A stretch of DNA of 38,631 nucleotides from an uncultured Bacteroidota bacterium. Lineage in GTDB: Bacteria; Bacteroidota; Bacteroidia; Bacteroidales; UBA12481. The position numbers and the translations under genes were made by a program. The stretch is taken from NCBI GenBank assembly GCA_903919065.1, contig CAIXHD010000573.1, positions 1-38,631 of the forward strand, in the 5' to 3' direction. Shown here piece after piece: positions 9,028-20,626 of the stretch (positions within the stretch are counted from its first letter, which is position 1; the number at the start of each line of letters is the position of its first letter). Below the pieces are notes generated by a model. It was given only the letters and a program-made list of their open reading frames with translations. It ran no database searches and was not told the DNA's origin.

Positions 9028-9981
9028 CTATAAAATTGCTTCGGCTATTTTTCTGATATTATCAGCACGCCCCATGGTAAAGAAGTGGATAATGGGCACT
9101 CCGGAGGCGATCAGCTCCTTGGATTGCTGAATGGCCCATTCAATGCCCACCTGCCTTACTTCATCATTATTTTTACACTTATCCATTTCTCTGGAAAGTT
9201 CAGCAGGAATATCGACTTTGAAGGTTTGGGGCAGAATATTCAGGTGACGTTTTATAGACACAGGCTTAATCCCAGGAATTATGGGTACTTTGATTCCTGC
9301 ATTGCGGCATGCCTCCACAAAGCTGAAAAACTTGCTGTTATCGAAAAACATCTGGGTAACAACATATTCGGCACCTGCCTCAATTTTTGCTTTCAGATGA
9401 GCCAGGTCGCTCTCAAAATTTGGCGCCTCGATGTGTTTTTCAGGATAAGCTGCGACTCCGGGCGAGAAATCCAGTGGCTCCGGATTTTCCAGATCATCTT
9501 CCAGATATTTGCCCTTATTCAAATCAACCACCTGCTTGAGCAGGTCGATGGCATGAACATGCCCGTTTCTGGTCGACAAAAACCTACCAGTCAATGGATT
9601 GGCATCACCCCTGACAATTAAAATATTATGAATTCCCAGATAATGCAGATCAATAAGTGCATCTTCCGTTTCTTCCTTTGAGAAACCGCCGCAAATAAGG
9701 TGTGGAACCACATCAACCCGATACCGGTTTTGTATAGCGGCAGAGATTGCTACAGTACCCGGCCTTTTCCTGACCACCTTTGGTTCCAGCAATCCATCGG
9801 GTCTTTCTTTAAGATCGACTTCGGCCTGATGATAGGTTATATTGATGTATGGAGGTTTAAACTCCATCAATGGATCCAGTGTATCATAAATAGTATGAAT
9901 ACTTGATCCTTTTGTCGGCGGAAGTATTTCAAAAGAAAATTTCGGCCCTTTCAATTTCTCAATGTGTTCGGTTACTTTCAT
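9028..9981 (-). CDS. metF: methylenetetrahydrofolate reductase
   Basis: [68 protein letters not shown]. Confidence 0.95.
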
Positions 9982-12900
9982 TTATAATTCAAATGAGTTG
10001 ACATTTGCTTCTCGGCATGGAGAACAGATATTCCCCTGCGCCTTGCATAATCGTTGATCTGGTCCTCGCCGATTCGTCCAACCTGGAAGTATCGCGATTC
10101 AGGGTGTGCAAAATATAGACCGGCAACTGACGCTCCGGGATGCATAGCCAAGGTTTCGGTAAGTACGATGCCAGTGCGTTTTTCTGGATCCAGGATTTTG
10201 AACAGGGTAAGCTTATCCTCATGGTCAGGGCAACTTGGATAGCCAATTGCAGGACGGATTCCGCTATAGGCCTCTTTAAGCAGCTCTTCCGTTTTAAGGT
10301 TTTCCCCGGGTGAATGTCCCCATATTTCTTTTCTTACCTCTTTATGAAGAAATTCCGCGAATGCTTCGGCAAGGCGATCCGCAAGCACCTTGATCATGAG
10401 AGATCGGTAATCGTCATTCTCTTCAGCGAATTCCCTGCTTTTTTCATCACAGCCAATTCCGGCGGTTGCTGCAAACAAACCCACAAAATCCTTATGCCCC
10501 AGTTTCTCGGGTGCAACAAAATCAGAGAGGCAAAGATTCGGTTCTCCTGCTTCCTTAACTTCCTGATTACGTAAGAAATAGAATCGTTCCAACTCCCGGG
10601 CAGGATCTTCATGATCATATACGATTATATCCTCCTGATCGGAATTTGCCGGCAAAATACCAACTATTCCATTTGCCTTCAACCATTTATGCTCAACTAT
10701 ATCCTTAAGCATCTCTTCAGCATCAGCAATCAAACTTTTTGCCTCTGTACCTTTAAGCGGATCTTCAAGAATTGCAGGGTACCTCCCGCGAATATCCCAG
10801 GTATAAAGGAAGAACGACCAATCTATATAAGGGATAAGTTTTTCGATTGGATAATCAAAGAATTCAATGAATCCCTGATGATTGGGTTGAATGATACCTG
10901 CTCCACCCTCCCAATTCAACTTAAATGCATTTTCTCTGGCTTTTGCCAATGAAACATGACCTTTTGCATGATCACGGCCTGCGTATTCTATTCTGATTTT
11001 ATCATAATCGGCCTTGATCTCCAATTTCCTGGCCTCGCCACGTTCTTCGGAAAGCAGATTGCTTGCAACGCCCACTACTCTGGAAGCATCTCTCACATGT
11101 ACGACAGGACCGTTATAAAAAGGATCAATCCTCAGTGCAGTATGTAATTCAGAGGTCGTTGCGCCACCAATAAGAAGTGGAATATGAAGTCCGGCTTTCT
11201 TCATTTCTCCGGCAACATAAGCCATTTCTTCCAATGATGGTGTGATCAGTCCGCTGAGGCCGATCATGGATGCTTTTTCCCGAATCGCGGTATCAATGAT
11301 TTTCTCGGCAGGAACCATTACGCCAAGGTCAATTACCTCATAATTATTGCATTGGAGGATGACACCAACAATGTTTTTACCAATATCATGAACATCTCCT
11401 TTAACAGTGGCAAGTACAACTTTACCAGCATTTCCTGTGCCCGTACCGTTAAGCTTCTGGGCTTCGATAAAAGGGGTAAGATAAGCGACCGCCTTTTTCA
11501 TTACCCTTGCGCTTTTGATGACCTGAGGGAGGAACATTTTTCCTGAACCAAAGCGGTCACCGACGACACCCATGCCCTCCATGAGCGGCTGTTCAATTAC
11601 CTCAAGGGCGAGCTGGAATAAATGCCTGGCCTCTTCAACATCCTCCTCTATATAATCAGCAATACCGGCAACCATGGAATGTATCAGCCTGTCCTTAACA
11701 GGAAGTGACCGCCAATCTTCCACGTGCCCCACACTTTTTTTATCTGTTTCACCCGTTCTCTCGGCATAGGCAAGCAACCTGTCGGTGGCATCCTTTCTTC
11801 GGTACATCACCACATCCTCAGCAAGCTTCAGTAAGGCAGGATCAACCTCATCATACACCTGAAGCATGGAAGGATTTACAATGCCGACATCCATACCAGC
11901 ACGAATGGCATGGTAAAGAAAAACAGCATGCATGGCCTGGCGGATATTCTCACGCCCGCGAAAGGCGAATGACAAGTTACTCACGCCTCCGGAAACCTTA
12001 ACTCCAGGAAGATTTTGTTTTATCCAGCGAGTTGCCTCAATGTAATTTAGTCCGTAACGGTTATGTTCTTCCATACCGGTAGCTAAAGCCAGTACGTTTG
12101 GATCGATGATAATATCTTCAGGTGGAAATCCGGCCTTGTTTACCAGCAAATCGTAAGAGCGGCGGGCGATTTCTATCTTTCTTTCAACGGTGTCAGCCTG
12201 GCCGGCCTCATCAAAAAGCATAACTATTACGGCAGCTCCAAAACGACGCAGAAACTCTGCCTGCTCAAGAAAGATTTCTTCACCGGCTTTCAGGCTTATT
12301 GAGTTTACCACCGTCTTTCCCTGTGTATTCTTCAAACCCTCCTGAATGGCAGAGAATCTTGATGAATCAATCATAACCGGAACCCTGGCTATGTCAGGAT
12401 CTGTGGCCACCATACGCAGAAATCTTCCCATTGCCTCCGGTGCATCAAGAAGCGGATCATCCATGCAAACATCTATCATCATGGCGCCACCTTCAATCTG
12501 TTCCTTGGCAACACTTAGTGCTTCCTCGAATTTTGATTCACGGATAAGCCGTGCGAATTGTTTCGACCCTGCAACATTGGTACGTTCACCAATATTGATA
12601 AAATTAGATTCAGGGCGGATAACCAGCGGCTCTAATCCGGAAAAAACCGTGGGATTCTGTAGGGGAGGACCCATGAGTCCTCCCACTTCTGTAATGGGAG
12701 GACACACGGGTCCTCCCCTACGCGCATTAATTTTATCGGCAACCCCGGCGATGGCACGAATATGATCAGGGGTTGTTCCGCAGCATCCTCCGATGAGGTT
12801 TACCAAACCTTCCTCCAAAAATATTCTGATCCAATCAGCCATTTCACTTGCAGATTGGGTATAATCACCAAGTTCATTCGGAAGTCCGGCGTTGGGATGT

Positions 12901-13721
12901 GCTGAGGTAAAGATCGGATTGCCATCTCTGGTTTTCCTTCCATTTGTTAAACGTTTCAGCTCCCTCAGATATGGAAGCAGCTCCTTCGCTCCCAGAGCAC
13001 AATTTATCCCTATTATCAGTGGATTTGCATGCAATACGGAGTAAAAGAAAGCCTCAAGGGTTTGCCCCGAGAGGGTCCTGCCACTTGCATCTGTGATAGT
13101 CACAGAAATTACGATCGGCCACTCCTCGCCCCGGGTCCTGAATTCCTCCTGCAAACCATAAATTGCTGCTTTGGCATTCAGAGTATCAAATATCGTTTCG
13201 ATAAGAAATCCATCCACGCCACCATCCAGTAAGGCAGCAGCCTGTTGCTGGTAAGCTTCAGCAAGCTGATCGAAAGTTATATTACGAAATCCTGGATCAT
13301 CCACCTTTGGCGACATGGAAGCGGTGCGATTGGTAGGTCCGATGGCACCTAAAACAAATGCTTTATCGCCGGCAGCCCTACGAGCAATTTTCGCAGCCTC
13401 CAGATTAATCTGATATACCAGGTGACCCGTATGATAATCTGCCTGTGAAATTGAATTGGCATTAAAGGTGTTGGTCTCAATAACCCTGGCCCCTGCCGCA
13501 ATATACTGGCAGTGAATATCATAAATATAATCAGGTCGGGATAAATTCAGGAGGTCATGATTACCTTTTAATAACTGGGGATGATCGGTAAGCTCTCCCG
13601 ACCGGTAATCTGATTCTGTTAAACGAAGTTTCTGAACCATAGTGCCCATAGCACCATCCAGAATAAGTATTTCGGACGATAAAGCCTCAGATAATCGTTT
13701 ATATGCAGGATTTTTTATCAT
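9978..13721 (-). CDS. metH: cobalamin-dependent methionine synthase
   Basis: [25 protein letters not shown] (Zn/Hcy domain), [16 protein letters not shown] (pterin domain), [13 protein letters not shown] (B12 domain), activation domain [11 protein letters not shown]. Start placed at [10 protein letters not shown] (13721), 1 bp after the hom stop, rather than 13757. Confidence 0.97.
12659..12721. repeat. 63-nt palindromic element embedded in the metH coding sequence
   Basis: GTAGGGGAGGACCC (12659-12672) is the exact reverse complement of GGGTCCTCCCCTAC (12708-12721); inner GTCCTCCCA (12677-12685) pairs with TGGGAGGAC (12695-12703). Each half also folds alone: GGGAGGAC-CCATGA-GTCCTCCC and GGGAGGAC-ACACGG-GTCCTCCC. 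Confidence 0.85.
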
Positions 13722-13722
13722 A

Positions 13723-14940
13723 TCAGTCAATTTTCCCTGTCCATGCGACGAAAACATTGAGTTTTCTGATCAGGTTCTTCATTTTATGCAATGTATCAAG
13801 TTTTATCTTTCCAATAACATAATTATAGGCCGGACCTGTGTATTTCTCCGAAACGGACTCGAAATCAAAATGACTGAGGTCGACCAGATCATGATAACGA
13901 AGATAAACTTCGACGGTAATATCCCTTGTGTACAATGGAGAAGCGAAAAAGTTCAATTTTTTGTATTCATAGCGGTAGTGGTGTTTCCTCGCGGTGATGT
14001 CGGAAAGCACTGCTGAACCAGTTGGGAAGGCACCAGCTCCTTTGCCGAACATAAATTGCTTATCGTAAAACTGGCCTTCAATAATAACTCCATTATATTC
14101 TTCCTCAACACTATAGATATACTCATCTGCACTAACGAACTTAGGCAAAACAAACATGGTGAATTTCTTTCCGTTCACCTTGCTTACCTGGGCAACCAGC
14201 TTTATTTTCTTACTCTTTTCCCTGGCATACAGGATATCGTGTTCAGAAACATTGCTGATCCCATAATGGAATACCTCCTCGGGATCCACCAGTGTACCAA
14301 AGCCATGCAGGGCCAGGATAATCAGTTTAAACATGCTGTCGAAGCCATCAACATCAAATGATGGATTACTTTCTGCAAACCCAAGTTCCTGCGCATATTT
14401 AAGAGCATCATCATAGGTCCAGCCTTGCTGAAAAATCCTGGTCAGGATAAAATTTGATGATCCGTTAAGGATACCGGTAATAGACTGCAAAAGGTCGTTA
14501 TCATAGTATTCCTCGAGATTTCGGATTACAGGAATGCTTCCACAGGCTGAAGCATCGTAGAGAAGTGCAACCCCATGAGTGCGCTGAAGTTCAATCAGCT
14601 CCTTCAAATGATGGGCAAGCATGTTTTTGTTTCCAGAAACAACTGATTTCCCATTCATTAAGGCTGTTTTAACTATCTGATAAGCAGCATCTGCATCATC
14701 AATCAATTCCACAATAAGATTTATTTCCGGATCGTTAAGCAGATCATGAGGGTTGATTGTAACAAGTCTGGAATCAATGGTTCTGGGCTTATCCTTTTGC
14801 TTCACACAGACAATCTTAATGGTAGCATCTGCAGTCTGAACCTCCTGTAATACTTTATATAGGCCCTGCCCCACCACGCCGAACCCAAAGAGTCCGATCA
14901 CGAGTTTGTTTTGCTTTTCAGTTGTCATATTTTCAGTCAT
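13723..14940 (-). CDS. homoserine dehydrogenase
   Basis: [84 protein letters not shown]. Confidence 0.93.
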
Positions 14941-17480: not shown

Positions 17481-17564
17481 GGGCATCGGGTTTCGGGTAT
17501 GGGGTATCGGGTGTCGGGTGTCGGGTATCGGGTATCAGGTATCGGGTATCAGGTATCGGGTGTC
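17481..17564. repeat. heptamer tandem array 1, consensus GGGTATC, 12 units
   Basis: gggcatc gggtttc gggtatg gggtatc gggtgtc gggtgtc gggtatc gggtatc aggtatc gggtatc aggtatc gggtgtc, no indels. Confidence 0.95.
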
Positions 17565-17632
17565 GTATGTTTTAAAAATTAGTAGATTTAACCACTCGAT
17601 GAAATAAATGTTTGAACACAAATTTTAAGGCT

Positions 17633-19081: not shown

Positions 19082-20518
19082 ATGAATATATTACAAAATA
19101 TCCCCATAGGTGATTCCGTTCTCGAAATCAGCTATCTGATTGCTTCCGTACTGTTCATTTTCGGCCTTAAGATGCTCAGTCATCCTGAAAGTGCCCGAAA
19201 AGGCAACTTCCTGGCTGCCATAGGGATGGTATTAGCCATTGTCTGCACGCTGTTGTTTCACCGAAAAGACGGAAAACCAATTGAACATTTGGGATTGATT
19301 TTGGCTGCCATTGCTATTGGAACTGCCATCGGATGGGCCATTGCTGTTAAAGTTAAAATGACTGCAATGCCTCAGCTGGTCTCCTTTTTCAATGGTATGG
19401 GGGGTGCCGCGGCTGCGCTAATTTCATTGATGGAATTCCCGAGAATGGCACCCGAACTGATCCAGCAACATGGCATGCTGAATGGTCATGCAATTGCCAT
19501 ACTACTTGGTTTAGTTATCGGTAGTGTTTCATTTGCCGGGAGTATGATTGCCTTTGGAAAGCTGGCTGAGAAAATCGGTGATCCGAAGCTTAAGTTCATG
19601 CGGGTGGTCAACCTTCTGTTTCTGGTAGGAATATTGATATTTGTGGTAGTGATTCTCTCCCAGGGCAAAGTTGAGCCAAAAGATATCAGTTGGATGGCGT
19701 ATGCCCTTTTAGGATTTTCCCTGATTTACGGTATAACCTTTGTAATCCCCATCGGTGGTGCAGACATGCCTGTTGTGATCTCCCTGCTCAATTCATTTAC
19801 CGGGGTGGCAGCAGCCATGGGTGGATTCCTATACAACAATCAGGTTATGCTCACGGGAGGTATTCTGGTTGGATCGGCCGGTACCATACTGACCGTGCTA
19901 ATGTGTAAAGCAATGAACCGTTCACTTCTCAATGTTATCATCGGAGCTTTCGGAGGCGGTGGAGCAGGTTTGGACAAAGTAGCCGGATCCATGAAAGAGA
20001 TCAGTGTCAGCGATGCAGCAGTACTTTTAAGCTACAGTCAGAAAGTGGTTATCGTTCCCGGCTATGGTCTGGCGGTTGCACAGGCACAGCATATCTGTCA
20101 TGAAATGGAAAAGCTGCTCGATGAAAAGGGAGTCAATGTCCGTTATGCCATACACCCCGTTGCGGGCCGCATGCCCGGTCACATGAACGTATTGCTTGCC
20201 GAGGCCGACGTTTCTTACGATAAGCTCCATGAGAGCGAAGAGATCAATGACGATATGCGCAATGTGGATGTTGTGGTTGTTATCGGCGCCAACGATGTCG
20301 TTAACCCTGCTGCAGCAGATGATCCGTCCAGTCCGATTTACGGTATGCCAGTGGTCAGGGTATGGGAAGCAAAAAGTGTTATCGTGATGAAACGCGGTAT
20401 GGGTAAAGGCTATGCAGCGATTGAGAACTTCCTTTTTTACAATGCCAATACCAGGATGCTTTTCGGAAATGCAAAGGACAGTATTCAGAAGCTGATTGGG
20501 GAGATTAAGAATTTGTAG
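19082..20518 (+). CDS. pntB: NAD(P) transhydrogenase subunit beta
   Basis: PQLVSFFNGMGGAAAALIS; VVISLLNSFTGVAAAMGGFLYNN; VIVPGYGLAVAQAQHICHEMEKLL; YAIHPVAGRMPGHMNVLLAEADV. Confidence 0.96.
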   Translation: MNILQNIPIGDSVLEISYLIASVLFIFGLKMLSHPESARKGNFLAAIGMVLAIVCTLLFHRKDGKPIEHLGLILAAIAIGTAIGWAIAVKVKMTAMPQLVSFFNGMGGAAAALISLMEFPRMAPELIQQHGMLNGHAIAILLGLVIGSVSFAGSMIAFGKLAEKIGDPKLKFMRVVNLLFLVGILIFVVVILSQGKVEPKDISWMAYALLGFSLIYGITFVIPIGGADMPVVISLLNSFTGVAAAMGGFLYNNQVMLTGGILVGSAGTILTVLMCKAMNRSLLNVIIGAFGGGGAGLDKVAGSMKEISVSDAAVLLSYSQKVVIVPGYGLAVAQAQHICHEMEKLLDEKGVNVRYAIHPVAGRMPGHMNVLLAEADVSYDKLHESEEINDDMRNVDVVVVIGANDVVNPAAADDPSSPIYGMPVVRVWEAKSVIVMKRGMGKGYAAIENFLFYNANTRMLFGNAKDSIQKLIGEIKNL

Positions 20519-20519
20519 G

Positions 20520-20603
20520 CAGTCGGCAGTACTCAGTCTTCAGTACTCAGTACTCAGTACTCAGTACTCAGTACTCAGTCTTCAGTACTCAGTTGGCAGT
20601 CGG
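20520..20603. repeat. heptamer tandem array 2, consensus CAGTACT, 12 units
   Basis: cagtcgg cagtact cagtctt (cagtact)x5 cagtctt cagtact cagttgg cagtcgg, starting 2 nt after the pntB stop. Confidence 0.95.
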
Positions 20604-20626
20604 CAGGAGGCACTGATATAAATAGG

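Follow-up and report, generated by a model that had tools for sequence, protein, structure and literature searches.

How a palindromic repeat could lie in frame within a core metabolic gene is the question raised by metH of an uncultured member of the Bacteroidales. In the window, the whole stretch of 38,631 nt that was analysed, the frame of this gene runs through a 63-nt palindrome composed of two inverted REP units, arranged as follows:

9978-13757, reverse strand: metH, cobalamin-dependent methionine synthase, 1259 aa, all domains intact
12659-12721, no strand assigned: inverted REP pair (REPIN/BIME-like), 63 nt or 21 codons, GTAG heads outward
12696-12721, reverse strand: REP unit 1, in metH coding sense, with GTAG head at 12718-12721 and 22-nt hairpin at 12696-12717; reads R(R)GGPVCPP
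12685-12695, no strand assigned: inter-hairpin spacer, 11 nt, giving 33-nt start-to-start spacing
12659-12684, forward strand: REP unit 2, in the opposite orientation, with GTAG head at 12659-12662 and hairpin at 12663-12684; reads VGGLMGPPL on the metH strand

Each REP unit of the 63-mer has the form GTAG-GGGAGGAC-N6-GTCCTCCC. The preliminary description of this DNA had reported a palindrome here with perfect arms of 14 nt (outer) and 9 nt (inner), and an 8-bp hairpin in each half with the common stem GGGAGGAC/GTCCTCCC; both its coordinates and this architecture are correct. The 63-mer matches its own reverse complement at 54/63 positions; none of 100 mononucleotide shuffles of metH exceeded 38, and the next-best 63-mer of the window reached 46. 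Its RNA is predicted to fold into a single long stem (-58.9 kcal/mol, z -9.5). Two inverted REPs at short spacing are the hallmark of REPINs and BIMEs, and pairs resembling this one are also present on contigs C15 and C467 of the same draft genome, hereafter G000. The description had further remarked that both strands are open here and that this may be what lets such an element survive in a gene. One of the three antisense frames is indeed open across the 63-mer, but this openness is no more than chance gives, because three of the six frames are open and GC-matched random 63-mers average 3.15.

The host gene encodes a complete MetH that scores far above the cut-off of the NCBIfam equivalogs PRK09490/TIGR02082 and contains the Pfam Hcy (residues 31-337) and pterin (390-628) domains, the B12 domains and the activation domain. 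The frame reads through the element, which specifies residues 346-367 and thus falls between the end of Hcy at 337 and the start of pterin at 390, in the open frame and interdomain linker to which it had been assigned. An AlphaFold2 model of residues 33-601, based on 44 homologs, has a mean pLDDT of 89.5, with values below 50 at residues 356-365, a modelled loop with a helix on one side and a strand on the other. The peptide of the element is predicted to be a low-confidence loop.

The hairpin is a repeated sequence. G000, the source of the window, holds 44 exact copies and 0 matches to a reversed control pattern. All 44 bear GTAG/CTAC heads, 40 on one side and 4 on both sides ('double foot'), and all are palindromic stem-loops with an unpaired 5' GTAG, as defines GTAG REPs. 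Also in keeping with that class, the copies are many, dispersed and mostly intergenic, with further diverged copies beyond the exact ones. Within G000, clear gene-internal sites are limited to metH and a RAYT gene; other in-frame copies (on C343, C295, C339, C467, C106, C92 and C465) were not counted as intragenic because the REP lies within the first ~60 codons of the covering frame, and the true start codon is probably downstream of it. The genomic hairpins, their GTAG heads and the inverted pairing bear out the earlier proposal of a REP/BIME-like doublet, and two of the checks suggested with it, a genomic copy count and a search for a RAYT/TnpA_REP gene, returned the 44 exact hairpins and such a gene. 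The notion of an ordinary GC-rich linker that merely resembles a repeat draws on the fact that the linker varies within the genus even in members without REPs (G007 and G008), but 44 exact GTAG-headed copies against 0 for the control reject a unique or ordinary sequence and leave this notion a negligible probability.

Of 60 genomes searched, six contain the hairpin, every one a member of G000's genus, with 28 copies in the sister species G011, 9 in G009, 8 in G005, and 2 each in G006 and G010; the same search gave no copies in the genus members G007 and G008. Related GTAGGGG[C]GGAC hairpins are found in scattered genera of the phylum (7/173 sampled, its own genus included). These counts come from fragmented draft assemblies, several of which are metagenome bins, with a contamination estimate of 4.3% for G000. 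Repeats of other arrangement were also seen: the window carries intergenic heptanucleotide tandem repeats of GTACTCA and GGGTATC types (20515-20612 and 17481-17577), and contig C462 of G011 (L217:1444-1762) has a tandem REP array with a 33-nt period and both strands open, with the putative reading (KEKGGHTGPPV)n.

A candidate for the enzyme that moves these repeats is encoded in the same genome:

contig C15, locus L075, 1742-2398: RAYT/TnpA_REP (HUH/Y1), 218-aa frame containing the motifs NHFH, WQ and YIRNNP

One REP pair adjoins this gene (1672-1741) and another lies in frame inside it (2007-2067), so that a putative HUH/Y1 transposase is accompanied by REPs of the same family, the arrangement expected of RAYT-associated repeats. 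The protein matches Pfam Y1_Tnp above the cut-off and NCBIfam REP_Tyr_transpos below the equivalog cut-off (55.8 vs 80 bits). TnpA_REP subclass 2.4 is abundant in Bacteroidetes and has REPs in frame inside its tnpA_REP genes; in these REPs the base of the stem consists of three G-C pairs, and double-foot GTAG...CTAC forms occur among them (Quentin et al. 2018, PMC6006769). G000 shares with this subclass the NH[IFV]H, WQ and YIxNNP motifs, the three-G-C stem base, the double-foot REPs, the in-frame REP between HUH and Y, and the Bacteroidetes host (PMC6006769). By motifs and REP placement, the C15 RAYT would be 2.4-like. Unlike what is described for subclass 2.4 (PMC6006769), the family is here also seen within metabolic genes of its hosts, as a REP pair in metH and as a REP in the phosphofructokinase gene of a sister species, G009. 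The closest relative of the C15 RAYT (64% over residues 121-200) is in G011, the second most REP-rich genome after G000, and it too has GGGAGGAC REPs adjoining. Each of the RAYT-like genes L188, L189, L194 and L202 of sister species carries an in-frame palindrome of a different kind; the palindromes seen in such genes are GGGCACCC in G009 and G011, GGGCGGGG in G006 and GAGACGCG in G011, a pattern to be expected under co-evolution of transposase and repeat. A Y1 transposase on C213 was rejected as the cognate enzyme: its match is IS200-like, and no GGGAGGAC REP was seen adjoining it.

We then traced the linker across relatives, measuring it as the GGCCGT-to-NIGERTN stretch of MetH. In 31 MetH sequences whose hosts fall outside the family to which the genus belongs, its length is 57 residues, with a single case of 58; G003, of the same family and another genus, has 62 residues, and members of G000's genus have 65-75. 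The extra residues are therefore confined to the lineage among the MetH relatives compared, as the preliminary description had anticipated, and the outcome that it named as contrary, a 63-mer unique in the genome within a phylum-wide linker, is at odds with both the 44 hairpins and the linker of ~57 residues elsewhere. REP or REP-derived sequence (RGGPxSPP-like) occupies the same place and frame in G000, G010, G006 and G011, and these four cluster together on the MetH tree (support 87/90). In G010, the nearest relative of G000, the element is decayed. The linkers of G006 and G011 carry variant stems, GGGAGGGC/GCCCTCCC and GGGTGGAC/GTCCACCC, respectively, each perfectly paired with both arms changed; the GGGTGGAC/GTCCACCC variant was not found elsewhere in the G011 genome or in the rest of the genus. 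The G005 linker holds a different palindromic repeat, to which other copies in that genome are related, and no REP or palindromic repeat was seen in the linkers of G007, G008 and G003. There is no clean empty site for metH because the linker is already expanded in every genus member. The G005 repeat is of a second GC-rich palindromic family (GTATGGGCG...CGCCC type; L079 linker region, L212-L216), which is present there in metH and in a GH106-like gene; a G008 gene holds a related repeat. In G006, metH carries a further in-frame REP (contig C110, L230:730-751), read as GRALEPSH, in a loop of the Hcy domain that precedes the linker; like the linker copy, from which it is separated by 250 bp, it is of the GGGAGGGC variant.

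Synonymous sites of G000 and its nearest relative are close to saturation, with fourfold sites 36% identical, and the G000 REP stems match the family exactly. At this level of divergence the perfect G000 copy cannot be a mere retention by neutral descent. The simplest reading is insertion or rewriting after the G000/G010 split, and the alternative account is selection on the hairpin, kept either as an mRNA stem that slows ribosomes between domains or as a DNA or RNA structure that regulates metH. The predicted RNA stem is very stable, and the stems in G006 and G011 have stayed perfect despite changes on both arms. Such changes could also arise, however, by template-switch repair of imperfect palindromes or by replacement with another REP, and the decayed element in G010, together with three genus members that have no repeat or a different one in the linker, makes a retained function improbable.

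We consider it very probable that a non-autonomous dimer of GTAG-type REPs lies here in a tolerant MetH linker, and that the RAYT of the same genome has most likely spread it in trans. The repeat family, its GTAG heads, the RAYT with the same REPs, the intact frame and the genus-confined linker expansion are direct observations; on this reading, a subclass 2.4-like HUH/Y1 transposase (RAYT/TnpA_REP) would move the dimer in trans, and the dimer lies in the surface linker that joins the homocysteine domain of MetH to its methyltetrahydrofolate domain. Its survival there could be explained by a length of 63 nt, or 21 codons, by its being read in a frame without stops, of which the GTAG head leaves two in this orientation, and by a Gly/Pro-rich flexible peptide in a loop tolerant of length change; the peptide would be translated and neutral for MetH. 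The linker apparently gained a REP once, in an ancestor of the four species, and this REP may later have decayed, diversified or been rewritten, in G000 by a new copy of the REP type that is abundant at present. This last step alone would differ if the REP had arrived by gene conversion or recombination onto the older linker REP and not by a new transposase event. Such a route is conceivable but the less likely one: diverged REP relics occupy the same position and frame in sister species (RGGPxSPP), but the best other full-length match to the 63-mer in the genome is 80%, and at other loci its two hairpin loops are found apart from each other.

In-frame copies are not limited to metH in the sister species, where selected copies were surveyed. 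The phosphofructokinase of G009 (contig C89, L224:1530-1551) has an in-frame REP, read as VGEDPSVLP, inside the PFK domain; its orthologs in G000, G010, G011 and G006 have unrelated loop sequence of varying length without a REP. A TPR protein of G006 also contains an in-frame REP, and a GH106-like protein of G005 an in-frame copy of the other (GTATGGGCG-type) family.

Intragenic GTAG and CGTC REPs, some translated in frame, were described in 2013 (Di Nocera et al., PMC3733652), where intragenic dimers or groups encode 20-30 aa and flexible linkers or loops are proposed as tolerated sites. Those GTAG REPs are, like the metH element, GTAG-tagged short stem-loops that form inverted dimers and are in some cases translated in frame (PMC3733652). 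In the text of that survey, GTAG families are assigned to Proteobacteria, Cyanobacteria, Chloroflexi and the PVC group, with Bacteroidetes not listed for GTAG; methionine synthase is not mentioned in the main text, and metH may be listed in the supplements (PMC3733652). The metH element also resembles REPINs, in which an inverted REP doublet is the repeated unit and is RAYT-linked (Bertels and Rainey 2011, PMC3116915). Unlike REPINs, many of the G000 copies are single hairpins. REPIN copy number in Pseudomonas is also higher than in G000. The likeness to Rickettsia RPEs that had been noted holds for behaviour, since these too are palindromic repeats in frame within protein genes, but not for family: RPE-4/-6 are described as CGTC REPs without a dedicated transposase (PMC3733652), whereas GTAG heads and an associated RAYT rule out a Rickettsia-type identity and place the metH element closer to RAYT-linked REPs.

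In-frame REP insertions are thus already known in other bacteria; what is unusual here is that they recur at a single enzyme linker. Our analysis adds a core cobalamin enzyme of Bacteroidales to the proteins with putatively translated REPs, and with it a core metabolic gene, a matched RAYT and the recurrence at one linker. The genus offers, in this one linker, a series of states (perfect, variant, decayed, absent, other family) on which the birth of protein loops from mobile palindromes could be tested. We tentatively suggest that, in this genus, the MetH Hcy-Fol linker may be a recurrent landing and rewriting site for mobile palindromes of at least two families and, from this recurrence together with the in-frame REPs in phosphofructokinase and other genes, that RAYT systems may be a steady source of new protein loops in Bacteroidales.
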